Positions 24,601 to 38,258 of a stretch of DNA of 60,031 bases are shown in pieces; the first letter of the stretch is position 1; every line of letters starts with the position of its first letter. The stretch is taken from assembly GCA_015057435.1 (NCBI GenBank), contig SVEJ01000014.1, forward strand, positions 1-60,031. The letters run 5' to 3'. The position numbers and the translations under genes were made by a program. Origin of the DNA: Lachnospiraceae bacterium (lineage in GTDB: Bacteria > Bacillota > Clostridia > Lachnospirales > Lachnospiraceae). The notes under the pieces were generated by a model. That model worked only from the letters and a program-made list of their open reading frames with translations. It did no database searches and was not told where the DNA came from.

Positions 24601-26736
24601 ATGTTTGAACAGGGAATGATAATTCAAAATAGATATGAAATTATAGAAGAAGTCGGTTCCGGCGGAATGTCAGTGGTATATAAAGCAAAATGCCATGTGT
24701 TGAATCGTTTTGTGGCGATTAAGGTATTAAAACTGGAATTTAGTGATGATAAAACATTTGTTAACAAGTTTCGAATTGAAGCACAGTCAGCTGCAGGACT
24801 TTCACATCCGAATATTGTTAATGTTTTTGATGTTGGAGAAGAGAACGGATTCCATTACATCGTTATGGAACTTGTAGAGGGTATTACATTAAAGGAATAC
24901 ATACAGCAAAATGGAAGACTACCGTATCCAACTGCAATTGATTTTATTACACAGATATGTGCAGGTATTGAAGTGGCACATGAACACAATACAATTCATA
25001 GGGACATTAAGCCACAGAATATTATTGTATCTCGTAACGGAACATTGAAAGTAACTGATTTTGGTATTGCAAAGGCAGCGACTTCGAATACGATTGCATC
25101 TAGTGCAATGGGGAGTGTGCATTATATTTCCCCTGAACAGGCGCGTGGTGGTTATTCTGATGAGCGTTCTGACATTTATTCATTAGGTATTACCTTGTAT
25201 GAAATGTTGACCGGTCGTGTTCCTTTTGAAGGTGAGAATAATGTTACGGTGGCATTGATGCATATTCAAAGTGAGATGATTCCGCCAAGAGAGTATTACC
25301 CGGATATTCCGATTGGTATCGAAAAGATTGTAATGAAAGCTACACAGAAGAAACCGGAAAGAAGATATCTTACCGCGAATGCTTTGTTGGCTGATTTGCA
25401 TAGAGTTGCATTAGATCCGAATGCAGAAGTTGGTGTGATTGGTACAATGATGTCAAGTACTGCACCAACGATTCAGATATCTGAAGAAGAAATGGCCGTT
25501 ATTAAGACGTCATCTATGGTACAACCGGAAGGGATTTCTATGTTTCCGGTGAATCGTCCGAATGTGGAGTTACAAGAAGCAAATGCAGCACTAGAAGAAT
25601 TATATCACGAAGATGATGACGATGATGAGGAAGAAGATCGTTACGAACGTGATGATACGAGTGGTGACATTGATCCAAAGATGGAAAAGATTATTACCAT
25701 TGGTGCAATTGCTGCAACAATTATTATTGCAATTATTATTATTGTTGCTATTTCTTCTATTACGGGTGCGTTTAAGAAAAAACCACCTACAACAGAAGTA
25801 GCGTCTACAACGGAAGAGGTAAAAACGACCATCATGCCGGATGTCACAGGCTTAACTGAAACTGTGGCACTTGAGATGCTCGATGAGGCAGAGATTCCAT
25901 ATGAGATAGAAAGAGAGTTTTCGTCTACATTTGAAAAAGGAACGATAATTAGTCAGAGTATCGCTAAGAATGAAGAGATAAAAGACGGTGATCGTGTTAA
26001 GTTGGTGATAAGTAAAGGTATTGAAGAAGCTGATGTACCTGACGTCGTAGGTATGGATGAGGAAACTGCAAAAGAGAAGTTACTAAATGCAGGATTCCAA
26101 GTTGAAGTAGACGAGGAATATGATGAAGAAGTAGAAGAAGGTTTGGTTATTAGCCAATCAGTTACGGATGTAGCTGAAAAAGGTTCTACAATTACCATAG
26201 TTGTAAGTAAGGGCGAAGAAGTTAAAGTTGCAAAAGTTCCAAATCTTAAGAAAAAGACTGTAACGGAAGCAGAAGAATTGCTTTCTGAGGCGAAATTAAA
26301 ACTTGGTAATGTAACGCAAGAATATCATGATTCTATTCCGGAAGGTAAAGTTATTAATCAAAGTGTAGAAGCAGGTCTTGAAGTGAAAGAAGGAACTGAG
26401 GTTAATATTACAATTAGCAAAGGTAAAAAACCTACAACCAAGACATATACTGCAAGCTTTTCAGGTGTGATTTCTAACGCAAGCTACACATTTAACGAAG
26501 CAGAAGAAGTGTATGTAACATTAACATTGAAGGTTGGTGAGGCTTCCTATACATTAATTGAAAATTATTATGGAGAAGCGAATTTCCCAATTGACCTTTC
26601 TGATATAAGCAATGTTGAAGGTTTAACGAGCAAAGAAGCATCGCTGATATACAAAGTAGAGGATGAGAATGGTAATGACATTACCGGTCATTTTACTTCT
26701 AGTGGGCAGGCAAAGTTAAAAGCAGTGGAGCAGTAA
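24601..26736 (+). CDS. prkC: PASTA-domain serine/threonine kinase
   Basis: PrkC senses muropeptides or lipid II and tunes cell-wall growth and dormancy exit. The kinase domain spans about 10-270: GSGGMSVVYKA loop, catalytic Lys41 (FVAIKVL), HRDIKPQN at 133-140, DFG in VTDFGIAKA, and SPEQARGG. An acidic juxtamembrane stretch (about 335-360) leads to one membrane helix at about 364-390. Outside are three PASTA repeats (about 410-474, 475-543, 544-612), then a C-terminal domain of about 100 residues that is not PASTA (FSGVISNASYTFNEAEEVYV...). That last piece is unusual and I do not recognise it. Confidence 0.96.
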   Translation: MFEQGMIIQNRYEIIEEVGSGGMSVVYKAKCHVLNRFVAIKVLKLEFSDDKTFVNKFRIEAQSAAGLSHPNIVNVFDVGEENGFHYIVMELVEGITLKEYIQQNGRLPYPTAIDFITQICAGIEVAHEHNTIHRDIKPQNIIVSRNGTLKVTDFGIAKAATSNTIASSAMGSVHYISPEQARGGYSDERSDIYSLGITLYEMLTGRVPFEGENNVTVALMHIQSEMIPPREYYPDIPIGIEKIVMKATQKKPERRYLTANALLADLHRVALDPNAEVGVIGTMMSSTAPTIQISEEEMAVIKTSSMVQPEGISMFPVNRPNVELQEANAALEELYHEDDDDDEEEDRYERDDTSGDIDPKMEKIITIGAIAATIIIAIIIIVAISSITGAFKKKPPTTEVASTTEEVKTTIMPDVTGLTETVALEMLDEAEIPYEIEREFSSTFEKGTIISQSIAKNEEIKDGDRVKLVISKGIEEADVPDVVGMDEETAKEKLLNAGFQVEVDEEYDEEVEEGLVISQSVTDVAEKGSTITIVVSKGEEVKVAKVPNLKKKTVTEAEELLSEAKLKLGNVTQEYHDSIPEGKVINQSVEAGLEVKEGTEVNITISKGKKPTTKTYTASFSGVISNASYTFNEAEEVYVTLTLKVGEASYTLIENYYGEANFPIDLSDISNVEGLTSKEASLIYKVEDENGNDITGHFTSSGQAKLKAVEQ

Positions 26737-26739
26737 TTC

Positions 26740-27618
26740 ATGCGTGGGAAAATAATTAAAGGTATTGCAGGATTTTATTATATCTATGCCAATCAAAATA
26801 TCTACGAGTGCAAAGCAAAGGGTGCGTTTCGTAATCAAAAGATTAAACCTTTGGTGGGAGATGACGTAGAGATTTCTATACTTGATGCAGAGAATATGAT
26901 TGGAAATATTGAACAGATACTTCCAAGACATAGTGAATTGATTCGACCGGCAGTCGCAAATGTTGATCAAGCACTGGTTGTCTTTGCTGCGGCAGCTCCT
27001 GAACCGAATTGGAATCTGTTAGACCGTTTTTTGCTTATGATGGAAAAGCAACATGTTCCGGTGGTTATTTGTTTTAATAAGATGGATTTGATAGATATGG
27101 ATAAATTCCAACAGTATGAAACAATATACAAAAATAGTGGATATCAGATTATTAATGCTAGCACATATGAAGAGCATGGTATGGATGTGATATTTGATGT
27201 GCTTGAAGGTAAGACAACTGCTTTAGCAGGCCCTTCTGGGGTCGGTAAGTCGTCTATTATGAATATGCTCAATCCTAACGCCAATATGGATATAGGTGGT
27301 ATTAGCAAAAAGATTGAAAGAGGCAAGCATACAACAAGACACTCGGAGATAATACCTGTTGGGGAGGAAACATATCTTGTTGATACTCCCGGATTTAGTT
27401 CCATTTATTTCTATGATGTGGAACCTGAAGAATTAAAGAGTTATTACAAAGAGTTTGAAGAATATGAACCGTATTGTAAATTTGGTGGATGCAATCATAT
27501 TGGGGAGAGAGACTGCGGAATCAAACAAGCAGTTTCGGATGGTATAATAGCAAAATCACGATATGATAATTATGTTTTGTTTTTCAATGAATTAAAGGAT
27601 AAGAAGCGTTATAGTTAA
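26740..27618 (+). CDS. rsgA: Ribosome small-subunit biogenesis GTPase RsgA
   Basis: RsgA checks 30S maturation near the decoding centre. The protein shows the circularly permuted order typical of the family: NKMD (G4) at 113-116 comes before the P-loop GPSGVGKSS at 164, followed by GKHTTRHSE and DTPGFSS (G3). An N-terminal OB fold (about 1-65) and a C-terminal zinc site (CKFGGCNHIGERDCG) frame the GTPase. 292 residues is normal. GGAG lies within the end of prkC, three bases away, so it is in the same operon. Confidence 0.96.
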   Translation: MRGKIIKGIAGFYYIYANQNIYECKAKGAFRNQKIKPLVGDDVEISILDAENMIGNIEQILPRHSELIRPAVANVDQALVVFAAAAPEPNWNLLDRFLLMMEKQHVPVVICFNKMDLIDMDKFQQYETIYKNSGYQIINASTYEEHGMDVIFDVLEGKTTALAGPSGVGKSSIMNMLNPNANMDIGGISKKIERGKHTTRHSEIIPVGEETYLVDTPGFSSIYFYDVEPEELKSYYKEFEEYEPYCKFGGCNHIGERDCGIKQAVSDGIIAKSRYDNYVLFFNELKDKKRYS

Positions 27619-27628
27619 GGAGATTGTT

Positions 27629-28282
27629 ATGAATTATTTATCACCCTCTGTTTTATCAGCGGATTTTTCCGAGTTGGGTAATGATATTATGATGGCAGTT
27701 GATGCAGGGGCACCATGGATTCATCTTGATGTTATGGATGGAAAATTTGTACCGAATATATCATTTGGTGCACCGGTTATCGCATCAGTCCGCAAAGTTA
27801 CCAATGCATTTTTTGATGTTCATTTGATGATTGAAGAACCGTCGAGATATATGAATGACTTTAAAAAAGCGGGTGCTGATTTGATTACTGTTCATTATGA
27901 GGCTTGTGAAAATGTAGAAGCAACTTTATATCAGATTCGGGAATTGGGTATAAAGGTTGGACTTTCTATTAGCCCTGATACTCCGGCTGAGGTTGTGAAA
28001 CCGTATCTTTCGATGGTAGATATGATTTTGGTGATGAGTGTATATCCGGGTTTTGGCGGGCAGAAATTTATACAAAGCAGCTTGGACAAAGTTCGTGTGA
28101 TTCGAGATATGGCAAATGAGTTGCATTATGATGACTTGTGGATAGAAGTTGACGGTGGAATCGGTGCTGAGAATATCGTCGATGTTAAAGAAGCAGGTGC
28201 GAATGTTTTTGTTGCAGGTTCAGCGGTTTTTAATGGAGATATTGCTAAGAATGTAAAAATGCTTAATGATCTGATTCGTTGA
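27629..28282 (+). CDS. rpe: Ribulose-phosphate 3-epimerase
   Basis: Rpe interconverts ribulose-5-phosphate and xylulose-5-phosphate in the pentose phosphate pathway. It is a 217-residue TIM barrel with LSPSVLSADFSELG at the start, HLDVMDGKFVPNISFG (metal-binding His and Asp), FDVHLMIEEP, VMSVYPGFGGQKFI, and the phosphate-binding VDGGIGAENI and VFVAGSAVF. AAGGAG precedes the ATG 10 bases after rsgA. The rsgA-rpe-thiN order is common in Firmicutes. Confidence 0.97.
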   Translation: MNYLSPSVLSADFSELGNDIMMAVDAGAPWIHLDVMDGKFVPNISFGAPVIASVRKVTNAFFDVHLMIEEPSRYMNDFKKAGADLITVHYEACENVEATLYQIRELGIKVGLSISPDTPAEVVKPYLSMVDMILVMSVYPGFGGQKFIQSSLDKVRVIRDMANELHYDDLWIEVDGGIGAENIVDVKEAGANVFVAGSAVFNGDIAKNVKMLNDLIR

Positions 28283-28314
28283 GTGAATGATGAATATTTG
28301 TGAGGTTTGTTAGA

Positions 28315-28995
28315 ATGAAACACATTTTGATTATGACAGGTGGAGCGTTAGAGATGGACTTTGCAAGAGCGTATATGAAGACCTTATCATTTGATAAGGT
28401 CTTTGCTGTTGATAAAGGTCTGGAATATGTAGATGAATTGGGTGTCACACCGGATTATTTGATTGGAGATTTTGATACGGTAAATCCTAACATTTTATCT
28501 AAGTATGAAAAGCTAGCAGAAACAAGGAAAGAAAATTATGTGATTATGAAACATCCGCCAATGAAAGATGCTACAGATACGGAACTTGCTGTTGATGTCG
28601 CAATTTCACTTCATCCGTGTATGATAACTGTATTGGCAGCTACAGGTTCAAGAATGGATCATGTGCTTTCTAATATTGGATTACTGCAAAAAGCGGCAGA
28701 TAAAGGAATTAGAATGTATATTATTGATTCTTGTAATAAGATTCAATTATTATCATCCGACACGTTGAATTCTTTACAATTGTTAAAAAATGAACAACAT
28801 GGTGCGTATCTATCTGTATTACCGCTTACGGACCTTGTCAAAGGATTAACAATGAAAGGTGTATTGTATCCGGTAGAGGATGAAGAGGTGCGAAAAGGGA
28901 GAAGTAAGACGGTAAGCAACGAGATTATTGATGATATGGCAGAAATCAGCATAAAAGCCGGTCAATTACTTGTCATAGAGAGCAAAGATAAATAG
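28315..28995 (+). CDS. thiN: Thiamine pyrophosphokinase
   Basis: ThiN makes thiamine diphosphate from thiamine and ATP. The 226-residue protein has the family's VFAVDKGLEYVDELGVTPDYLIGDFDTV block, KDATDTELAVDVAI with conserved acidic residues, and AATGSRMDHVLSNIGLL. The start at 28315 has GAGG 9 bases upstream; a TTG at 28300 is less likely. It closes the def-to-thiN cluster; no clear terminator stem follows, only GCTAGC and a T-run at about 28996. Confidence 0.93.
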   Translation: MKHILIMTGGALEMDFARAYMKTLSFDKVFAVDKGLEYVDELGVTPDYLIGDFDTVNPNILSKYEKLAETRKENYVIMKHPPMKDATDTELAVDVAISLHPCMITVLAATGSRMDHVLSNIGLLQKAADKGIRMYIIDSCNKIQLLSSDTLNSLQLLKNEQHGAYLSVLPLTDLVKGLTMKGVLYPVEDEEVRKGRSKTVSNEIIDDMAEISIKAGQLLVIESKDK

Positions 28996-29060
28996 CTAGC
29001 TTTTTTTAGTAGAATATGCTAACATAAGAGGCGAATTTTTTTAAAAAGGAGAGAATGAAT

Positions 29061-30611
29061 ATGAGTGGTTCGATTGTATGGATTTTACTTGCATTTGCTG
29101 CATACATGGGTATGATGATTGTTATCGGGGCAAGATATGCAGGTAAGACAAAAACTTCTGAGGATTTTTTCCTTGGTGGTAGAAATTTGAATGGATGGGT
29201 AGCAGCGTTATCTGCGCAAGCATCTGATATGAGTGGTTGGCTTTTGATGGGGCTTCCGGGTAGTGTCTATGCGTTTGGTACAGGACAGGCTTGGATTGCT
29301 GTTGGTTTGTTTTTGGGTACCGTATGTAACTGGTTATTTGTATCGTCAAGACTTAGAAGATATACGATTTGTGCGAATAATGCACTTACTTTACCGGCCT
29401 ATTTGGAAAATCGCTTTCATGACAAGAAAAGAATGTTATTGTTAGTGTCTTCGATTGTTATTGTTATCTTTTTCCTTGTTTATACTGCGTCTGCATTAAC
29501 TGCAGGTGGTAAGTTGTTTGCTTCGGTATTCGGAATTGATTATAAGCTTGCACTTACAATCGGTGCAGCGGTTATTCTTGTGTATACATTTCTAGGTGGC
29601 TTCATGGCAGTATGTGTGACGGATTTTATTCAGGGTATGTTAATGTTAGTTGGTGTACTTGTTGTTCCGATAATTGCTTATTTCTTTGTTGGACCTGAGA
29701 ATGTTGTTGGCCTGCTAGGGGAATCAGGTGTTGCAGGAGGAGCTAGTTCATATCTTAACATTATGGAAGATTCCGGTTCAAAGGTATCATTGATTTATAT
29801 TATTTCACAATTAGCATGGGGATTCGGTTATTGCGGTATGCCTCATATTCTTGTCCGTTTTATGGCGGTTTCTAGTGAAAAGGAACTTAAGAAGTCGAAA
29901 GTAATTGCGATTATCTGGGTTGCTTTATCTTTGAGTTTTGCTGTTATAATCGGTATCGTTGGACGTGCTTATCTTTACCCTACAGTGTTGGGTGAAACAA
30001 CAGAGACTTCAGCGGAGAATGTATTTATAGAACTTATTACAAAACTTTTTGTGGATGATTTGGCTTGGCCATTTGTTGGTGGTTTGTTCTTGTGCGGAAT
30101 TTTAGCTGCAATTATGTCGACAGCTGATTCCCAGTTGCTTGTAACGGCATCTGCGGTTGCAGAAGATTTATTCAAAGGCATTTTCAAAAAGGACGCCGAT
30201 GAAAAAACGGTTTTGAATGTCAGCAGAGTAACAGTAGTAGTGGTTGCGGTTTTGGCGTATGTGATTGCACTGAATCCAAATAGCTCTGTTATGGGCTTGG
30301 TATCAAATGCGTGGGCAGGATTTGGTTCTGCGTTTGGTCCGATTATTCTACTTTCTTTGTATTGGAAACGAGTGAATCTTCCGGGTGCAATGGCAGGAAT
30401 TATCTCCGGTGCAGCAACTGTTTTAGTATGGGATTATCTACCGGTATTTGAAAATGGTATGACACTTGGCGGAAAGACAGGTCTATATTCGCTTGCTTTA
30501 GGTTTTGTGATTAGTTTAGTTTTAATTATTGTTGTTTCATTAGTGACGAAGAAACCATCTGATGCAATAATAAAAGAATTTGAAGAGATGGAAAAGATGT
30601 CTATTGAATAG
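29061..30611 (+). CDS. putP: Sodium/solute symporter, proline (PutP) type
   Basis: A 516-residue membrane protein of the SSS family with about 13 helices. Conserved blocks are ARYAGKTKTSEDFFLGGRNL, ALSAQASDMSGWLLMGLPG (helix 2, with residues that bind sodium and proline in PutP), YTFLGGFMAVCVTDFIQG, and AAIMSTADSQLLVTASAVAED. These point to sodium/proline symport, though the substrate is not proven. The start at 29061 gives 9 bases from AAGGAG; the ATG at 29055 would leave only 3. It stands alone between the thiN cluster and a strong terminator. Confidence 0.9.
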   Translation: MSGSIVWILLAFAAYMGMMIVIGARYAGKTKTSEDFFLGGRNLNGWVAALSAQASDMSGWLLMGLPGSVYAFGTGQAWIAVGLFLGTVCNWLFVSSRLRRYTICANNALTLPAYLENRFHDKKRMLLLVSSIVIVIFFLVYTASALTAGGKLFASVFGIDYKLALTIGAAVILVYTFLGGFMAVCVTDFIQGMLMLVGVLVVPIIAYFFVGPENVVGLLGESGVAGGASSYLNIMEDSGSKVSLIYIISQLAWGFGYCGMPHILVRFMAVSSEKELKKSKVIAIIWVALSLSFAVIIGIVGRAYLYPTVLGETTETSAENVFIELITKLFVDDLAWPFVGGLFLCGILAAIMSTADSQLLVTASAVAEDLFKGIFKKDADEKTVLNVSRVTVVVVAVLAYVIALNPNSSVMGLVSNAWAGFGSAFGPIILLSLYWKRVNLPGAMAGIISGAATVLVWDYLPVFENGMTLGGKTGLYSLALGFVISLVLIIVVSLVTKKPSDAIIKEFEEMEKMSIE

Positions 30612-30620
30612 TAGATAATA

Positions 30621-30653
30621 AAAAAAGAGGCCTGTCTGTAAGGCCTCTTTTTT
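30621..30653. terminator. Strong bidirectional terminator after putP
   Basis: AAAAAAGAGGCC (30621-30632) pairs perfectly with GGCCTCTTTTTT (30642-30653), loop 9 bases. Confidence 0.93.
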
Positions 30654-30812
30654 ATAAGTATAGGGAGAATTAATGAAAAAATATGAAAAAGTTCATTTCC
30701 ATGCTCTTACTATAAAATATAATTATGAACAAATTATGACATTGAAAAAAACATTTTGAAAACAAATGATGATTTTTTTTATTGTTATATATGAATAAAT
30801 TAGGTGATAGGT

Positions 30813-31271
30813 ATGAAGTATAAAATTCTTTGTATAGGAAAAATAAAGGATCAATTTTATAAAGATGAGATAGAAAAGTATTGCGAAAACGTACGTTTGA
30901 AAGGACATCAGTTAGAAGTTATAGAATTTTCGGATGAAAAAATACCGGAACATTTGAATGATAAAATAAAAAAACAGATACTTGAAAAAGAGTGTGATCG
31001 GATGTATGCCAAGATTGCAAAGAGAGATTATGTTATTGCATTATGTATTGAAGGAAAAGAGATAACAAGTAAGCAGCATCAACAATATCTTGAATTGGCA
31101 CGGGATAATGGCTGTGAAGGGGTTGTATATTTAATAGGCGGTTCACTGGGGTTGTCTGATACAATCAAGAATCGTGCAAATCTGAAGATGAGTTTTTCGA
31201 AAATGACTTTTCCGCATCAAATGATGCGAATGGTACTTTGTGAAGAAATCAGTCGATGTATTATGTCATAA
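30813..31271 (+). CDS. rlmH: RlmH-family rRNA methyltransferase, C-terminal tail missing
   Basis: RlmH methylates N3 of pseudouridine 1915 in 23S rRNA. The 152-residue SPOUT protein opens with KYKILCIGKIKDQF, has the SAM-binding knot LIGGSLGL at 107-114, and SFSKMTFPHQMMR at 127-139. Family members end in a conserved tail with YHK or YHR after an EQ.YRA helix; here the helix reads EEISRC and the protein stops two or three residues later (IMS). The N-terminal KRL segment of the family is also altered (CENVRLK). AGGTGA before the ATG at 30813 sets the start. Its stop is 5 bases from the stop of the convergent RlmH-like gene, which has what this one lacks. Confidence 0.88.
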   Translation: MKYKILCIGKIKDQFYKDEIEKYCENVRLKGHQLEVIEFSDEKIPEHLNDKIKKQILEKECDRMYAKIAKRDYVIALCIEGKEITSKQHQQYLELARDNGCEGVVYLIGGSLGLSDTIKNRANLKMSFSKMTFPHQMMRMVLCEEISRCIMS

Positions 31272-31276
31272 AGATG

Positions 31277-31714
31277 TTATTTGTGATATGTTTTACCTTG
31301 TAATATTGTATATCCGCGATATAGTTGTTCGTACAACATGAGCATAAGCGTTTCATGTGATAAATTGAGGTTTGTAACAGAAATATAATTAGGCATAGGA
31401 TAGTTATCAATTGAAAATAGAGCGTCGTATAATTCATTGATTTCATAACCGATGAAAATATGTACATGTGATTTTCCGCTATGCATAAGTGTATTGATGC
31501 ACTGCGCAAATTCTTCGGATGTATGTGAAGATATATTCTTTTCAACAAAAAGAATATAATGATTGTTTTCTTGAATTGGTTGAGAAAATACTATGTTACA
31601 TCCTGTATAATAGGTTGTATCACAGTACGCGGACAATCGTTTTTGAAACTCTGCTATTGCAGCAAGGTAGTTTTTGTTTAAAGATTTTGTATTACAATAA
31701 ATATGATAATGCAT
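31277..31714 (-). CDS. Second RlmH-like protein: tail intact, SAM site degenerate
   Basis: This 145-residue protein is a distant RlmH relative. It keeps the family's N-terminal helix AIAEFQKRLSAYC (19-31) and its whole C-terminal end: LNLSHETLMLMLYEQLYRGY, then TYHK as the last four residues. The SAM-binding loop is broken: IGG.xGL of the family reads IGYEINEL from 88. The DEK.P block of the first domain is absent. GAGGTGA lies 5 bases before the ATG, so the gene is real. It starts 20 bases after the tRNA-Arg and converges on rlmH. It is most simply read as the RNA-side partner of a two-protein RlmH. A dead paralogue is the alternative. Confidence 0.78.
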   Translation of the reverse strand: MHYHIYCNTKSLNKNYLAAIAEFQKRLSAYCDTTYYTGCNIVFSQPIQENNHYILFVEKNISSHTSEEFAQCINTLMHSGKSHVHIFIGYEINELYDALFSIDNYPMPNYISVTNLNLSHETLMLMLYEQLYRGYTILQGKTYHK

Positions 31715-31734
31715 AGATTCACCTCAAAAAAATA

Positions 31735-31806
31735 TGCACCAGAGAAGAGTCGAACTTCCTCACATGGCTCCGGAGGCCATTGCTCTATCCGTTGAGCTAC
31801 TGGTGC
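31735..31806 (-). tRNA. tRNA-Arg (anticodon CCG)
   Basis: On the minus strand, GCACCAG pairs with CTGGTGC as a 7-base-pair acceptor stem; the D stem is GCTC/GAGC; the anticodon stem ATGGC/GCCAT holds the loop CTCCGGA with CCG at 31771-31773; the T stem is GGAAG/CTTCT with loop TTCGACT. Discriminator A is at 31735. CCA is not encoded. A short T-run follows directly, then the ribosome binding site of the RlmH-like gene. Confidence 0.96.
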
Positions 31807-31819
31807 ATTTGCAAGCATT

Positions 31820-31848
31820 ATCATACTACAATTTTTTTGAAATGGCAA
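31820..31848 (-). promoter_or_regulatory. SigA-type promoter of tRNA-Arg and the RlmH-like gene
   Basis: On the minus strand: TTGCCA (31843-31848), 17-base spacer, TATGAT (31820-31825). Transcription would start near 31813, 7 bases before the tRNA. Confidence 0.65.
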
Positions 31849-31855
31849 ACGAATG

Positions 31856-31884
31856 TTGCATTTTAATACTCCATTTGCTAAAAT
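31856..31884 (+). promoter_or_regulatory. SigA-type promoter of the 31942 gene
   Basis: TTGCAT at 31856-31861, 17-base spacer, TAAAAT at 31879-31884, back to back with the tRNA promoter. Confidence 0.65.
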
Positions 31885-31941
31885 AAATAGTTGTGATTGT
31901 AATAAGTAGATTAAAATATAGAATATGAGCGGAGTTATATT

Positions 31942-32742
31942 ATGAAAAAAAATATATTTGATCGAATGTCAGATTCATATGATGATTTTCATCTCAAAGA
32001 TTCCGAAATTAAGACAAAAAAAGGTGTAGTTAAAGTTAGTCCGAAGATTAAGCTTGCACTCGGTTGGAGCCTTTTTGTTTTGTGTTGCGTTATTGGACTT
32101 TTGGTGATTCAATTACCGGCCGAACGCGGAAGAGAATTGACACAAGAAGATAAAAAAGCTGTTTTGGATGAAAAGGTTTCTTTGGATGAAGAACATGATA
32201 CAATTGTTCCTTATCAAAAGGATGCGGATAAAGAATTAAATGCGTTTGTAAAATCTTATTTGGATGCAATAGTAAATTGTGATTATATTGGATTACAAGA
32301 TATGGTAACTGATCCGTCTGAATTTAGAACCCCTGATTTATTGAAAAAGAAAGCAGAATTTATTACAGGTTATGACAATATTACGGTGTATACGAAAGTT
32401 GGATTAGATGAAGGAAGTTACATTGCATTTGTAGTATCCAATGTAACGATTACCGGAGTGAATTCTGCACCATATGACATTTCTATGTTATATATAATTA
32501 ATGGTGCACGAGGTTATTTGATTAATAACAGTGCATTGTCACTTGATACCCAGGAATATATAGAGAAAGTAAAAGGTGACAAAGATATACAAAAGATATA
32601 TCGTTCAGTGGAGAAAGAGAATGAAAAATTAAAAGAGCAAGATCAATCATTGCAAGAATTTTTTGATATTATTTCGAAACGTGATATAGAGGTGGACTCT
32701 GCAGCAGAGATTTTAGGGACAGAAGAAAGCTCAGAAGAATAA
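31942..32742 (+). CDS. Membrane-anchored protein of unknown function
   Basis: I do not recognise this 266-residue protein. A cytoplasmic N-terminus of about 35 residues is followed by one membrane helix (about 39-58, LALGWSLFVLCCVIGLLVI), then an extracytoplasmic domain. That part begins with charged, Lys/Asp/Glu-rich sequence (60-95), has a compact region at about 95-200 that resembles the small NTF2-like folds seen in such proteins (FVKSYLDAIVNCDYIGLQDMV), and ends in a coiled coil (about 205-240) and an acidic tail. The fold remark is a guess. It has its own promoter and a hairpin after it. Confidence 0.7.
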   Translation: MKKNIFDRMSDSYDDFHLKDSEIKTKKGVVKVSPKIKLALGWSLFVLCCVIGLLVIQLPAERGRELTQEDKKAVLDEKVSLDEEHDTIVPYQKDADKELNAFVKSYLDAIVNCDYIGLQDMVTDPSEFRTPDLLKKKAEFITGYDNITVYTKVGLDEGSYIAFVVSNVTITGVNSAPYDISMLYIINGARGYLINNSALSLDTQEYIEKVKGDKDIQKIYRSVEKENEKLKEQDQSLQEFFDIISKRDIEVDSAAEILGTEESSEE

Positions 32743-32780
32743 ATGCATTTTAGGTTTTTAAAATATATCAGATTCTAGAT

Positions 32781-32814
32781 AAAGTGGCGTTGTTGTGTTA
32801 TCCGACGCCACTTT
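32781..32814 (+). terminator. Hairpin terminator after the 31942 gene
   Basis: AAAGTGGCGT (32781-32790) pairs with ACGCCACTTT (32805-32814). The T-tract is short, so strength is uncertain. Confidence 0.65.
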
Positions 32815-32933
32815 GTCATATCGTTTGCTTGTAGAAAAATATGTTATAATAATTTGTAAGTGTTTACAATCTAGATTATGTATTCAATTGTATTAGGTGA
32901 TAATGTGCGTGTTTTGTTGTGGGAGGTTTGGAG

Positions 32934-34838
32934 ATGAAAGCAAAAAATATTGCAGTACTAGTGACAGCGTTAGATTTCTATGCACAGGTGGAGACCTTAA
33001 AAGGTATTGAAGAATATGGAAAAAAACATGGATTTAATATTGCTGTTTTTTTGTGGTTTGCAGGTGCGCTTGAACGTGACAAACAAAACATAGGGGAATT
33101 GAATATTATATACTTGCCGGACTTTAATTTGTTTGATGGTGTTATTGTCTTTGCGAATACTTTACATCTAGAGGCGAATCGTCAAAGGATAGAAGAGGTG
33201 TTAGAAGACATATCTTGTCCGGTTGTGACGATAGGATGTAAGATAAAAGACTATACGAGTGTGTATACAGATGGATATGCAGCAATGCGCGAGATTGTTG
33301 AGTATTTTGTAAATGAGAAACAAATGACCAATATTCATTTTGTAAAAGGAATTGAGGGCAACATGGATGCTGAATCGCGATATCAAGCTTATGTTGATGT
33401 CTTGACAGAGCACGACATTCCTGTTTTGGAAGAACGCGTGACGCAAGGGGATTTTTATGTAACCGGAGGAGCACGCGCGGTAAAGGAAATCATGGAGTCA
33501 AAGCTTTCATTTCCTGAAGCGATTGTGTGTGCCAATGATGTTATGGCGATTACAGTTTGTGACCTTTTGATGGCAAAAGGATATAACGTTCCTGAGGATG
33601 TAATGATCTCAGGGTATGATTGTAGCTTAGAAGGTCAGCAACATTCTCCGAAAATGACTACGGTTCGAATACGTTTTCATCAATTGGGAGAAACAGCATG
33701 TAAAATGCTAATTGATGAAATAGAAGGAGAAGAAATACACAAGGATTTATTCTTGCCGGATGAAATTATCTTAAATGAAAGTTGTGGACATCATGAGCAG
33801 TACACTATTGTAAAGCAACAATCTGAATTTATGGCAGAGACAGAAGCTATTCAACGTAGAATGATTTATCAAACGATCTTCTTGGAGAAGAATATCATGG
33901 AAGGTGAAGGTTTTGATGATTGGAAAGAATCTGTTCAAGCTTTTGTAGAACAGATGGAAATAACAGAGTTTTACTGCTGTGTTAATGAAGATTTTGTGGA
34001 GAATGTATTTGAATTGGATGTGATGGACCAAGAGGATATGAGTATAAAAGAACGTTTGGCATATACGCAGGATGTGGATGTTATTTTGGCATATAAAAAT
34101 GGTGTGTTTAAACAAAAAGCATCTTTTGCGTCAAGATATGCATTTGATGAGATGTTTCATGATTCGGATATTCCAAGAACTTATATTTTTTCACCATTTC
34201 ATTATCTGGATCGAACCTTTGGATATTTTGTGTTTGTGGATAGCCTGTTTCCAAAAGGGAATTCACTTTATATCAGTTGGTTAATTAAAATGGGACATTT
34301 CATTGAAACTATTCGAAAACAAAGTCTGTTGCAAAATGCGATGGCACGTTTGGATGATATGTATATTAGAGATTCCCTGACAGGGGCATATAATCGTTTT
34401 GGTTTGGAGCGTTTTTATGCGGAGATAAAAAAGAAATGTCTTATGTCCCGTTTGTGTATGCAATTATCCTTTATTGATTTGGATGGGCTTAAAGGAATTA
34501 ATGATGCATATGGTCATGAAGAAGGTGACCGGATAATTACTGCAGCGGCCAATATATTAAAAAAACGTGCCGGCAAATTTAAAGTAATTCGATACGGTGG
34601 CGATGAATTTGTTGTTATGGGTACTGTAAAAAATGAGAAAGAAATAGAAGCGTATTGGAAAATCGTAGAGGAAGATATTCGTATATATAATGAAACGATA
34701 ATGAACAAAGCAGAATTGTCTTTGAGTTATGGATATGATGTCTTCCGTGTAGGAGCAGAAACACATTTAGAAGATTGTTTGCGTATTACGGATCATAAGA
34801 TGTATGAGAATAAAAAGCGTAAGAAAGGGATAGAATAA
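32934..34838 (+). CDS. LacI-type sensor fused to a GGDEF diguanylate cyclase
   Basis: The first 290 residues look like the ligand-binding part of LacI/GalR regulators without the DNA-binding head: NIAVLVTALDFYAQVETLKGIEEYG, then AIVCANDVMAITVCDLLMAKGYNVPEDVMISGYD. A middle helical region follows (about 300-460). The C-terminal GGDEF domain has DSLTGAYNRFGLERF and an intact RYGGDEF (555-559), so it should make cyclic di-GMP. No RxxD inhibitory site is seen ahead of it, and no membrane segment is present, so it is cytoplasmic and probably controlled by a small sugar-like ligand. The start at 32934 has GGGAGG 7 bases upstream. Confidence 0.9.
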   Translation: MKAKNIAVLVTALDFYAQVETLKGIEEYGKKHGFNIAVFLWFAGALERDKQNIGELNIIYLPDFNLFDGVIVFANTLHLEANRQRIEEVLEDISCPVVTIGCKIKDYTSVYTDGYAAMREIVEYFVNEKQMTNIHFVKGIEGNMDAESRYQAYVDVLTEHDIPVLEERVTQGDFYVTGGARAVKEIMESKLSFPEAIVCANDVMAITVCDLLMAKGYNVPEDVMISGYDCSLEGQQHSPKMTTVRIRFHQLGETACKMLIDEIEGEEIHKDLFLPDEIILNESCGHHEQYTIVKQQSEFMAETEAIQRRMIYQTIFLEKNIMEGEGFDDWKESVQAFVEQMEITEFYCCVNEDFVENVFELDVMDQEDMSIKERLAYTQDVDVILAYKNGVFKQKASFASRYAFDEMFHDSDIPRTYIFSPFHYLDRTFGYFVFVDSLFPKGNSLYISWLIKMGHFIETIRKQSLLQNAMARLDDMYIRDSLTGAYNRFGLERFYAEIKKKCLMSRLCMQLSFIDLDGLKGINDAYGHEEGDRIITAAANILKKRAGKFKVIRYGGDEFVVMGTVKNEKEIEAYWKIVEEDIRIYNETIMNKAELSLSYGYDVFRVGAETHLEDCLRITDHKMYENKKRKKGIE

Positions 34839-34887
34839 GTATAATTTAATATGATAAACAATGTTTATATAGTATTGTAGAATTGAA

Positions 34888-34917
34888 AACACCACCGACT
34901 AATCAGTCGGTGGTGTT
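34888..34917. terminator. Bidirectional terminator between convergent genes
   Basis: A perfect 13-base-pair stem, AACACCACCGACT (34888-34900) with AGTCGGTGGTGTT (34905-34917), loop AATC. It serves both the GGDEF gene and the Lrp gene coming from the other side. Confidence 0.9.
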
Positions 34918-34918
34918 A

Positions 34919-35392
34919 TTATTCTTCTTCCGAATTGAGGTCTTCCGGGAGCCCTGTTGCGTATACATCGATTCCACGTGGTTTCACAGGTGTTGAGAAA
35001 ACAATTTGTGTTTCTGTTTTTCCGTATTTTTGTAATTCTCCGATAAATGCATCTAACTCCATCGTACTTTTGAATGCGACTTTAATTAACATGGAATATG
35101 CACCTGTTACGCAGTTACATTCTAAGACGTTTGGGCAAGATTCAATATAAGGATAAAAAATTGGTTTTTGCTTTGGCTCTAAAGACATATTGATAAATGC
35201 TGTAACATGGTATTCTAACATTACCGGATCTACAGCAGCGTGATATCCTGTAATGATATTGGCATTTTCTAATCTTTCAATTCTTGCAGAAACTGCAGGG
35301 GATGACAAAAATACTTTGCTGGCAAGATGTTTAAGTGGATATCTTGCGTTCTCTTGTAATAAATGTAATATTTTCTTGTCGATACTATCCAT
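34919..35392 (-). CDS. Lrp/AsnC-family transcriptional regulator
   Basis: A 157-residue protein with the standard Lrp layout: MDSIDKKILHLLQENARYPLKHLASKVFLSSPAVSARIERLE is the winged helix-turn-helix, followed by GYHAAVDPVMLEYHVTAFI and a RAM (amino acid-binding) domain ending in a FSTPVKPRGI segment. The acidic tail (LPEDLNSEEE) is an addition. Such proteins sense amino acids. AAGGGACGTG precedes the ATG. It is divergent from rluF with 150 bases between. Targets are not visible. Confidence 0.92.
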   Translation of the reverse strand: MDSIDKKILHLLQENARYPLKHLASKVFLSSPAVSARIERLENANIITGYHAAVDPVMLEYHVTAFINMSLEPKQKPIFYPYIESCPNVLECNCVTGAYSMLIKVAFKSTMELDAFIGELQKYGKTETQIVFSTPVKPRGIDVYATGLPEDLNSEEE

Positions 35393-35542
35393 AATTAATC
35401 ACGTCCCTTCATTTATCTCTATATTATAGGTGTTTTACTTAATTTTTTCAAGCGAAAACTTTTGCGGAATAAATTGAAAAAGAAAGTATGGCATGTTATG
35501 ATAAACGGGTATGATTTTTAGAATAGGAGTTTTATCAGATAG

Positions 35543-36274
35543 ATGAGTGATGGAATCAGATTGAACAAGTTTATCAGCTCTTCCGGATTTTGTTCTAGAA
35601 GAAAAGCAGATGAATGGATTGCAAGTCATAAGGTATATGTGAATGGAGTACCGGCAGATATGGGCATGCGAGTATTTCCTGATGATCAGGTTGTGATCAA
35701 TGGAAAGATTATTCAGAAACAGGATTCTTTCAAACTTGTAGCATTTTATAAGCCAAAGGGATATGCTTGTACAGCACATAGAGGTGATCAATCAAGTATT
35801 TTTCAAAATTTTCCGTTAGATACAGATTTGAAATATATTGGACGATTAGATAAGGATTCCGAAGGATTGTTATTGTTATCGAATGATGGTGATTTGTGCA
35901 ATGCAATTGCAAAGGCAAGAAATCAACATGAAAAAGAATATGTTGTTACAGTAAATAGACCGATTACTGCTGATTTTTTGGAAGGTATGTCTAATGGAGT
36001 TCGAATCTATAACAAAGATAAGGATACATATGTAGTAACGAATCCGTGTAAGGTATATCTTCAAGATGAGAATACATTTATAATTATATTAACACAAGGA
36101 CTTAACAGACAAATTCGTAGAATGTGTGAGCATTTTGATTACCGGGTAAAACGTCTTAAAAGGGTACGTGTGATGAATATTACATTGAATGGTATGCAGT
36201 CCGGTGAAATACGCCGGGTATCAGAGGATGAGTATCAACAATTAAAGCAAATGCTTACCCAAAAGGAAAAATGA
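35543..36274 (+). CDS. rluF: Pseudouridine synthase of the RluF type
   Basis: It converts a uridine of 23S rRNA, and in E. coli also tRNA-Tyr position 35, to pseudouridine. The S4 RNA-binding domain covers about residues 4-55 (IRLNKFISSSGFCSRRKADEWI). The catalytic aspartate is Asp103 in GRLDKDSEGLLLLSNDG. The GLNRQIRRMCEHFDYRVKRLKRVRVMN stretch resembles RluF more than RluB or RsuA. 243 residues is a normal length. No strong ribosome binding site is visible (AGATAGATG), so the start is less sure. ligA starts 7 bases after its stop. Confidence 0.88.
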   Translation: MSDGIRLNKFISSSGFCSRRKADEWIASHKVYVNGVPADMGMRVFPDDQVVINGKIIQKQDSFKLVAFYKPKGYACTAHRGDQSSIFQNFPLDTDLKYIGRLDKDSEGLLLLSNDGDLCNAIAKARNQHEKEYVVTVNRPITADFLEGMSNGVRIYNKDKDTYVVTNPCKVYLQDENTFIIILTQGLNRQIRRMCEHFDYRVKRLKRVRVMNITLNGMQSGEIRRVSEDEYQQLKQMLTQKEK

Positions 36275-36281
36275 GGTTTTT

Positions 36282-38258
36282 ATGGATAGAAAAGAGAGAT
36301 TAAAAGAACTTGTCAAGCTTCTGAACGAAGCATCTAAGGCATACTATCAGCAAGATAGAGAAATAATGTCTAATTTTGAATATGATCAATTATATGATGA
36401 GTTGGTAACGTTAGAACAGGAGACGGGGATTGTACTTGCTAACAGCCCTACAATTCATGTTGGTTATGAAGTACTTAGTGAGCTAGAAAAGCAAAAACAT
36501 CCTGTTCCAATGCTGTCACTTGATAAAACAAAAGAGATTGATGTATTAACTTCATGGCTTTCGCACCATGAAGGTGTTTTGTCATGGAAATTGGATGGCC
36601 TTACTGTTGTATTAACATATAAAGACGGACAGTTGCAAAATGCAGTGACGAGAGGTAACGGTGAGATAGGAGAAGTAATTACAAATAATGCGAAAACATT
36701 TGTGAATATACCGAATGTGATTCCGTACAAAGGGGATTTGACAATTCGAGGAGAAGCTGTCATTACATATTCTGATTTTAATAAAGTGAATATGGAAATG
36801 GATGACACGCAGGAAAAATATAAGAATCCGAGAAATTTGTGTTCGGGTTCCGTTCGTCAACTTAATAATGAAATAACCGCCAAACGTCATGTTCGTTTTT
36901 TTGCATTTTCTATGGTCGAAGGTGTATTGCATGAGGAAGAGATTGCTGTACGCGGCTTTGACAATACAATGATGAGGCGTTTTGACTGGCTTGCGAGCCA
37001 AGGGTTTGATGTTGTAGAACATTATCTTGTAAATGCTGATAATCTTGAAGATACAGTGAGAGACTATGCGAAAAAGATAGCAGAGTATGATGTTCCTTCT
37101 GATGGCTTGGTATTGACTTATAACGATATCGCATACGGAAAAAGTCTTGGTACAACAGCCAAGTTTCCGCGAGATGCAATTGCTTTTAAATGGGCAGATG
37201 AATTAGCACAGACAGTATTACGTGAAGTGGAATGGTCTCCATCAAGAACAGGTCTTATTAATCCTGTTGCTGTTTTTGATGCGGTAGAATTAGAAGGGAC
37301 AACCGTGAGCAGGGCGAGTTTGCACAATGTAAGCATATTACGTTCGCTTGAATTAGGAATTGGTGATACGATTACTGTCTACAAAGCGAACATGATTATT
37401 CCTCAGGTTGCAGATAATTTGACGAGGAGTAATTGTTTGGAATTACCAAAAATATGTCCTGCATGTGGAGGTACAACAACCTTACAGGATGTTAATGGAG
37501 TGCAGTCATTGTATTGTATGAATGCATACTGCAGTGCAAAAAGAATAAAAGGTTTCACACACTTTGTATCTCGTAATGCAATGAATATAGACGGATTATC
37601 AGAAGCTACATTAGAAAAATTTATAGAGAATGGTTATCTGAAAAAACTTCCGGATTTGTTTCATTTGCAACGTTACAAAGATGAAATTATTGCAATGGAA
37701 GGATTTGGAGAAAAGTCATATACAAACTTAATTGCTTCGATTGATAAAGCAAGGAATGTATCGATGGCAAAATTCTTATATAGCCTTGGAATTAATGGCA
37801 TAGGATTAGCGAATGCGAAAGTGATTGTAGCATATTTTCAACAGGATTTCGATGCGATTATACATGCAGACGAGGATATGCTTATGCAGATTGAAGGAAT
37901 CGGCGATGTGTTGGCTTCGGCATTTTGTGATTATTTTAAAGATGAACAAAACAAAGAAATGTTGAATCAATTATTATCCGAAATTACATTTGATATTGAG
38001 GTCAAGAGTGAGAATCAGTCATTGTCAGGAAAGACATTTGTAATTACAGGTAGTGTTTTTCAGTTCGCAAATCGTAATGAGTTAAAGGAATATATTGAAA
38101 AAGCAGGCGGAAAAGTTGCAAGTGCAGTGTCGAAGAATACTGATTATCTGATTAATAATGATGTGACATCGAATTCATCTAAGAACAAAAAAGCAAGAGA
38201 ATTACAGATTCCTATTTTGTCAGAAGATGATTTTATTAAACTTACAAATAGCATATAA
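36282..38258 (+). CDS. ligA: NAD-dependent DNA ligase
   Basis: LigA seals nicks during replication and repair, using NAD. In the 658-residue protein, domain Ia (YYQQDREIMSNFEYDQLYDEL) binds NMN; the adenylated lysine is Lys103 in WKLDG; motif blocks TRGNGEIGEVI and RGEAVI follow; the OB fold holds VEWSPSRTGLINPVAVF; a four-cysteine zinc finger is CPAC...CMNAYC; then helix-hairpin-helix repeats (GFGEKSYTNLIASI) and a C-terminal BRCT domain (LSGKTFVITGSVFQF). All domains are present. It shares an operon with rluF (7 bases apart), and metA follows by 30 bases. Confidence 0.96.
   Translation: MDRKERLKELVKLLNEASKAYYQQDREIMSNFEYDQLYDELVTLEQETGIVLANSPTIHVGYEVLSELEKQKHPVPMLSLDKTKEIDVLTSWLSHHEGVLSWKLDGLTVVLTYKDGQLQNAVTRGNGEIGEVITNNAKTFVNIPNVIPYKGDLTIRGEAVITYSDFNKVNMEMDDTQEKYKNPRNLCSGSVRQLNNEITAKRHVRFFAFSMVEGVLHEEEIAVRGFDNTMMRRFDWLASQGFDVVEHYLVNADNLEDTVRDYAKKIAEYDVPSDGLVLTYNDIAYGKSLGTTAKFPRDAIAFKWADELAQTVLREVEWSPSRTGLINPVAVFDAVELEGTTVSRASLHNVSILRSLELGIGDTITVYKANMIIPQVADNLTRSNCLELPKICPACGGTTTLQDVNGVQSLYCMNAYCSAKRIKGFTHFVSRNAMNIDGLSEATLEKFIENGYLKKLPDLFHLQRYKDEIIAMEGFGEKSYTNLIASIDKARNVSMAKFLYSLGINGIGLANAKVIVAYFQQDFDAIIHADEDMLMQIEGIGDVLASAFCDYFKDEQNKEMLNQLLSEITFDIEVKSENQSLSGKTFVITGSVFQFANRNELKEYIEKAGGKVASAVSKNTDYLINNDVTSNSSKNKKARELQIPILSEDDFIKLTNSI

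Follow-up and report, generated by a model that had tools for sequence, protein, structure and literature searches.

In the E. coli homodimer of RlmH (also YbeA or OrfX; PF02590, COG1576), the 23S rRNA pseudouridine-1915 N3-methyltransferase, one monomer forms the SAM pocket (L72-I74, L102 with 103-GGPEG-107, and L122-V132) and faces the RNA with K11, K42 and R43, while R25, R26, R142 and R154 on the RNA side belong to the other monomer, whose tail contributes Y152, H153 and R154 (Koh et al. 2017, PMC5430550). Mutants of E138, Y152, H153 and R154 are inactive, including Y152F, H153F and R154A, and H129A and R142A are weakened; dead mutants retain ribosome binding and compete with the wild type, with Y152F and H153F losing catalysis and leaving ribosome binding unharmed (PMC5430550). 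The second SAM site of the dimer is empty below 500 uM SAM, which agrees with the KD of ~1 mM that the same paper quotes for S. aureus OrfX (PMC5430550). Hence, one site per dimer suffices. These accounts agree with the first-pass annotation of the DNA studied here, which describes a homodimer with SAM from one subunit and the tail from the other.

Two further bodies of work touch on the locus described below. According to a 2007 survey of SPOUT enzymes, no enzymatically inactive SPOUT protein was on record at that time; the survey puts forward one from yeast as a candidate inactive subunit of a heterodimer (PMC1829167). In addition, SCCmec and an Enterococcus cassette are described as inserting in the 3' end of rlmH at the att core TATCATAA (PMC6222049). 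We found that this core is the Tyr-His-Lys coding stretch of rlmH in genome G435.

We analysed a stretch of 60,031 nucleotides from a Lachnospiraceae bacterium (contig SVEJ01000014.1), called the window here, which holds two rlmH-like genes. Gene A (30813..31271, plus strand; ORF, PF02590 and phmmer), the proposed SAM-binding subunit, encodes 152 aa from an ATG at 30813 to a stop codon at 31269-31271 and ends in ...EEISRCIMS. It matches PF02590 with 135.8 bits over profile positions 1-145 of 154, passing the Pfam cut-off of 27, and matches 1to0 (Bacillus subtilis YydA) by phmmer with E 6.8e-36 up to 1to0 residue 148, without the tail; its best score against the NCBIfam RlmH equivalogs is 162.2, below the cut-off of 172. 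The glycine-rich SAM loop of RlmH is present in A, as the bight LIGGSLGL (31131..31154, plus strand), which the sequence and its alignment to 1to0 place at the E. coli L102-L108 region, and it is absent from B; the SAM role of this region is taken from E. coli RlmH (PMC5430550). Downstream, TFPHQ (31206..31220, plus strand) includes the equivalent of E. coli H129, a histidine that all 49 A proteins (100%) have and that 8% of the 49 B proteins share.

Gene B (31277..31714, minus strand), the proposed tail-donating subunit on the RNA side, is an RlmH of 145 aa without the SAM loop, with its ATG at 31714 and its stop codon at 31277-31279. It passes the same Pfam cut-off with 58.5 bits over the whole PF02590 profile (1-154), scores at best 57 against the NCBIfam equivalogs (cut-off 172), and matches 1to0 best between the SAM region and the final Tyr-His-Lys; its fold is predicted to be an RlmH-type SPOUT fold. 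EFQKRL (31634..31651, minus strand) supplies the equivalents of E. coli R25 and R26, with K25 and R26 invariant both in 19 B proteins and in 49/49 B. The SAM loop has decayed to IGYEINEL (31430..31453, minus strand; read with its neighbour, FIGYEINEL), and the second and last glycines of GGSLG occur in 0/49 B. At the C-terminal end, EQLYRGYTILQGKTYHK (31280..31330, minus strand) is the catalytic tail, with equivalents of E. coli E138, R142, Y152, H153 and R154 and with its E, Q, Y, R, I, Y, H and K invariant in 19 B proteins; the roles of these residues are assigned from E. coli (PMC5430550). The Tyr-His-Lys/Arg tail of RlmH is thus present in B and absent from A.

The two genes are convergent, tail to tail at 31271/31277, with 5 bases between their stop codons, and BLASTP gives no direct link between the proteins (E 0.30). 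The first-pass annotation had described a plus-strand RlmH of 152 residues with LIGGSLGL and no YHK tail, and a minus-strand partner of 145 residues with EFQKRL, a full tail and a degenerate IGYEINEL loop; the ORFs, the sequence and the profile range of A bear out both descriptions. Its statement that A has lost the KRL motif holds in that the Arg pair and the tail are gone, and needs the qualification that equivalents of E138 and R142 are still there in A (E-E-I-S-R). Since neither protein alone has the full RlmH feature set, we file the pair, and not either protein, as RlmH.

ARAGORN places a neighbouring tRNA-Arg(CCG) gene (31734..31807, minus strand) 20 bases upstream of B. As an observation in its own right, tRNA-Arg(CCG) lies upstream of B on the same strand within ~0.9 kb at 15 of the 19 other genus loci scanned (L003-L021), and also on the same strand at L053, L066, L068 and L083. 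Around 30 single-gene rlmH loci of the family, no tRNA was found within 1.5 kb.

For a comparison of residues, we put 49 A and 49 B proteins in one alignment with 149 ordinary RlmHs and called a position conserved at 85% or more of ordinary RlmHs, kept at 70% or more, and lost below 40%. The rows are not independent, as the window's genus accounts for ~20 of the A and ~20 of the B proteins. We found 37 conserved positions, of which 13 are kept by A only, 11 by B only, 2 by both, and 11 are mixed. The A-only set includes the SAM-loop glycines (second and last, 98-100% of A and 0% of B) and the H129 equivalent. Equivalents of R26, R142, Y152, H153 and R154 fall in the B-only set, at 100% each in B and at 22, 22, 2, 2 and 4%, respectively, in A. 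The E138 equivalent is common to A (92%) and B (98%), and because it is in both and the window's A also has the R142 equivalent, the division is not perfectly clean. In an alignment of 19 varied B proteins, E22, K25, R26, S66, E129, Q130, Y132, R133, I137, Y143, H144 and K145 are invariant, and the SAM-loop region differs in length and letters between lineages.

We found two PF02590 matches, A and B, in the window's own genome (a 92.8% complete draft), and that search gave no third RlmH, canonical or otherwise; a third, canonical copy is what the first-pass annotation had named as evidence against the pair. The same genome has five PF00849 pseudouridine synthase matches. Within the genus, 22 of 26 genomes, including the window's, have a PF02590 match, and all 22 carry two convergent genes, the first of which ends at profile position 141-147; the A match of G009, one of these genomes, crosses a stop codon. 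The four genomes with neither gene are drafts of 77-91% completeness. A helix-69 pattern occurs in 0/26 of the genus drafts, from which the rRNA may be absent. Because the pair and the same ending of A recur in 22 genomes, chance and sequencing error are excluded as sources of the tail loss, the latter a doubt that the first-pass annotation had raised.

Beyond the genus, PF02590 matches 378 of 396 genomes of the family, 360 of them once and 18 twice (3 of the 18 from the own genus). Among 17 examined further (15 doubles and two weak singles), 13 have the pair; the rest are fragments (G103, G236), a diverged single gene (G248) and A alone (G385). In the class, 353 of 393 genomes match, and 17 examined further yielded 10 pairs in eight other families, B alone at a contig edge (G562), and otherwise ordinary or damaged genes. 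The phylum sample (127 of 149 genomes matching) added one pair from another class (G848), and four more were reached by accession, in Youngiibacter fragilis 232.1, where A and B are the only ones found in the genome, in Clostridiales bacterium COT073 and in two MAGs. Six B loci are among the 80 of 550 contig matches listed; two of them (G800, G801) are G005 and G020 again and were not counted. The total is 50 pairs in at least 10 families, from which we excluded G103, G236, G509, G539 and G605, where the second match is only a fragment, as well as G533 for its frame break, G678 for a shortened gene with B not found, and G385 and G562 for having one half each. Plasmids and phages gave 28 and 24 records with a match; the 10 listed of each are at most ~40% identical and all RlmH-sized, so none of these looks B-like.

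The arrangement of the pairs is uniform in one respect: in 46 of 46 same-contig pairs, 22 of them from one genus, B lies downstream of the 3' end of A. The two genes are convergent in 32 (the 22 of the one genus included) and on the same strand in 14, with none upstream or divergent; in the remaining 4 of the 50 pairs, A and B are on separate contigs. The A and B frames overlap or touch on the same strand in G544 and G609, which fits joint translation.

We found that tail loss in A accompanies B nearly always, with few exceptions. For the phylum sample all matches were printed, and in 124 of the 127 genomes with a match it extends to the end of the profile. The three others comprise a gene truncated at a contig end and two A genes, the window's own and that of G848, with B beside both. 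A further 28 single-copy genes of the class, 26 picked for weak scores, gave 27 that reach position 154 and one that reaches 153 (G738), match ranges being printed for only part of the family and class genomes. The exceptions include G385 (94% complete), with A present and B not found, and G533, where the tail is in another reading frame and B was not found; in G562 (92% complete), B is at a contig edge and A was not found. Relatives with only one of the two genes, which the first-pass annotation would count against the pair if their m3-pseudouridine were normal, occur as the drafts G385 (A) and G562 (B), and all six B-bearing genomes reached by accession have A plus B.

Some single genes deserve separate mention. 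The only RlmH of G678 (L174) ends at profile position 118, beyond its SAM loop, and a B gene was not found in that genome. The single-copy, very diverged RlmHs of G665 (L175) and G738 (L219), from one genus, have the tails SYNK and KYDK, which are without the catalytic histidine. G907 (C1:2442774-2443246) carries an intact rlmH and, ~7 kb away, a broken second copy in two overlapping pieces.

From the residues and their distribution, we consider it likely that the organism's RlmH consists of A and B jointly, as a heterodimer in which a single active site works. Pairing of A with B and methylation by the pair are what we infer: A would bind SAM in its knot, and B would dock on A as the second subunit and bring Tyr-His-Lys and the arginines gripping the rRNA hairpin to the SAM of A. 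The pair would then methylate pseudouridine 1915 of 23S rRNA at one composite site in place of two equivalent ones, and neither A nor B should work alone. The complementary loss matches the division of labour in the E. coli dimer, in keeping with the earlier proposal that the roles may be fixed in two genes. A fused model of the A-B pair of G714, built on a two-row alignment, has a pLDDT of 51 and a pTM of 0.40, too low to speak for or against pairing.

The conserved tail also bears on whether B still takes part in methylation. B could instead be a catalytically dead RlmH whose binding to the decoding-centre hairpin serves some other end, such as competition or ribosome silencing, with A alone active or inactive; the second and last glycines of the SAM loop are gone in 49/49 B, and inactive E. 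coli mutants have been seen to bind ribosomes in competition with the wild type (PMC5430550). However, what B keeps is precisely the catalytic tail, in addition to RNA-binding residues, and the tail loss of A coincides with B with few exceptions. Moreover, Y152F and H153F abolish catalysis and spare ribosome binding (PMC5430550), so selection that keeps these residues points to catalysis, and we regard a dead B as unlikely.

We also weighed separate homodimers of reduced or altered activity, for example A with a substitute base and B with a rebuilt SAM loop. The E138 equivalent retained in A, the RlmH fold predicted for B and the single-copy RlmHs whose tail has no histidine (G665, G738) would fit such enzymes. 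However, the E. coli mutants Y152F, H153F and R154A are inactive (PMC5430550) and the window's A has none of the three residues, and the loop of B has neither a constant length nor a constant sequence from lineage to lineage, which is not how a rebuilt binding site would look; we think separate homodimers improbable.

Both A and B are under purifying selection as judged from substitution rates, with dN/dS of 0.05-0.20 for both genes in pairs with estimable dS. These values, together with catalytic residues that are invariant over many genera and the match of both genes in 22/22 genus genomes with an internal stop in one only, speak against a decaying duplicate that is being lost, an idea for which the high divergence and the existence of relatives without any RlmH match could be cited and to which we give hardly any credence. 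As for such relatives, PF02590 has no match in 18/396 family, 40/393 class and 22/149 phylum genomes. The 18 in the family, such as G125, G362 and G069, are genomes at least 90% complete, and both sampled members of genus g101 are without a match, so whole genera may have lost RlmH. Since 4/26 genus and 18/396 family genomes are without a match, the enzyme may be dispensable.

To trace A, we built trees with the tail columns removed and a hand-picked set of rows, most genus rows and many ordinary rows being left out. A tree of 34 A and 60 ordinary RlmHs has 8 state changes, at least 4 of them forced by well-supported branches. In a carefully built tree with 20 A genes and 34 ordinary ones there are 5 state changes, A forms one group in 0/200 bootstrap trees, and A as one clade is rejected (AU p 1.6e-6). 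The A genes of G618, G489 and G512 are placed among the ordinary genes of their own families. Hence, by these trees, resident rlmH genes that lost their 3' end gave rise to A-type genes on several occasions.

In contrast to the repeated origin of A, B is probably a single lineage. With the SAM columns removed and G705 omitted, 18 B stand on one side of a branch from 30 ordinary genes (support 86/90, in 90% of bootstrap trees). The long row G705 had fallen among ordinary genes in an earlier B tree, and B branches are long in the trees. AU tests reject a grouping of the B of G618 or of G489 with genes native to the host's family (p 0.0003 and 0.013), and between these two genomes B is 93% identical and A 62% identical. 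From these results B looks to have moved horizontally between families at least once. An own-family origin of the B of G512 is not rejected (AU p 0.149), so B may have originated more than once.

The genome G618 suggests how a tail may be cut. Here A ends in ...RINMGER, and directly 3' is a large serine recombinase of 704 aa, one protein with Resolvase, Recombinase and zinc-ribbon domains, followed by genes for type I restriction-modification, then a tyrosine recombinase and finally B. The ends of this element, 15.9 kb apart, form an 18-base inverted repeat with no mismatch. Just outside the far repeat lies GEPYHK with a stop codon, which occurs once in the 23.5-kb stretch and in none of 200 shuffles and which we read as the severed rlmH tail; B is inside the element, 1.7 kb from the severed-tail end. 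The DNA past this tail matches none of the rlmH pieces of seven relatives (G550, G510, G531, G813, G532, G436 and G435, some with little post-gene DNA), so gene order does not confirm that end. In the family of G618, PF02590 matches 14 of 22 genomes, and the pair occurs in G618 alone. In this one genome it is thus well supported that the rlmH tail was cut at its Tyr-His-Lys codons by a serine-recombinase element that carries B.

In G489, which belongs to a different family, A stops just short of Tyr-His-Lys and is followed by this left arm too, with B 13.6 kb on, which suggests that an element caused the tail loss there as well; no recombinase was seen in the readable part and the right arm was not found. 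Genes of the IS200/IS605 type flank B on both sides in G489 (L237). In G464, of the genus of G618, a related serine-recombinase gene lies right after rlmH (L252:1083-3247), and the element junction rebuilds the rlmH tail as EPYHR. In G892 (L273), rlmH is intact and a piece of the family's last 32 positions lies ~2.5 kb downstream on the same strand, perhaps as the far-end scar of an element.

Codon usage in the tail is suggestive only, as the tail-codon sequences are related: the att core TATCATAA occurs in the tail codons of 63/132 ordinary and 14/49 B genes, and CAC is used in 31/49 B tails versus 65/187 elsewhere in B.

These elements admit a tentative and somewhat doubtful reading of the origin of the pair, in which B is a half-enzyme that travels on elements that cut the rlmH tail and supply it in trans, with hosts that then become dependent on it. 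Of the elements inserting at the Tyr-His-Lys codons, some would restore the tail in cis, as G464 shows, and others would remove it and provide it in trans by way of B, as in G618. A host that had lost the tail would depend on B, B would be retained after the element decayed (as in G489), and a fixed heterodimer would result; this cut-and-supply by elements would have recurred over Clostridia and beyond. If true, an element-borne B would explain the repeated A, the single B lineage and the position of B downstream of A, in the window included.

The split could also have come about by ordinary duplication and complementary decay of a homodimer that had one useful site, with no mobile element, the G618 element being unrelated and later, and we think this about as probable as not. 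Between A and B, the genomes G443, G291, G227, G395, G136 and G179 have other chromosomal genes, among which neither of the two recombinases has a relative; the window has no element trace or known element arm, with no recombinase seen by eye among the ORFs of 26000-36500; and B stands apart from ordinary genes, as an old lineage would. However, the tail loss falls at the element junction in G618 and G489, the B of these two genomes does not group with host family genes, and B is always downstream of A, all of which speak against an origin with no mobile element.

In the open-access literature we found no heterodimeric RlmH and no B-like gene, most subscription papers and bioRxiv preprints lying outside that scope; within it, the first-pass annotation's statement that it knew of no earlier description stands. 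If the pair works as proposed, it would be the first heterodimeric SPOUT methyltransferase found in that literature and a natural separation of the two roles to which the E. coli RlmH mutants pointed. It makes testable, in one small enzyme, how homodimers become obligate heterodimers, with an early stage (little beyond Tyr-His-Lys lost) and later stages both in living relatives. The element suggests how mobile DNA might sever the gene of an enzyme and make itself indispensable by bringing along the missing part. For genome annotation, pipelines may count A and B as two RlmH copies, or overlook B, which scores 57 where 172 is required.

To our knowledge, the nearest working analogue is Trm6-Trm61, the eukaryotic m1A58 tRNA methyltransferase, a non-SPOUT enzyme. 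Like A and B, it is a paralogous pair with one subunit without SAM motifs, and it has a homo-oligomeric relative, the homotetrameric TrmI (PMC5372732). It differs in being eukaryotic and in that its site is not divided between a knot and the tail of a partner. RlmH itself has the same family, predicted fold and residues as A and B together, and the E. coli homodimer likewise joins the SAM of one monomer to the tail of the other (PMC5430550); however, RlmH is one gene and a homodimer, whereas here the roles are split over two genes and neither protein has the full set.

SCCmec and the Enterococcus cassette chromosome share their target with the elements described here, and in G618 and G464, too, rlmH is directly followed by the gene of a large serine recombinase. 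What G618 has in common with such cassettes is an insertion at the rlmH 3' end and an adjoining serine recombinase. By description, SCC/ECC-type cassettes have a CcrA and CcrB pair; the recombinase of G618 is one large protein. Set beside these cassettes, the G618 element differs in leaving rlmH tail-less and in carrying B.
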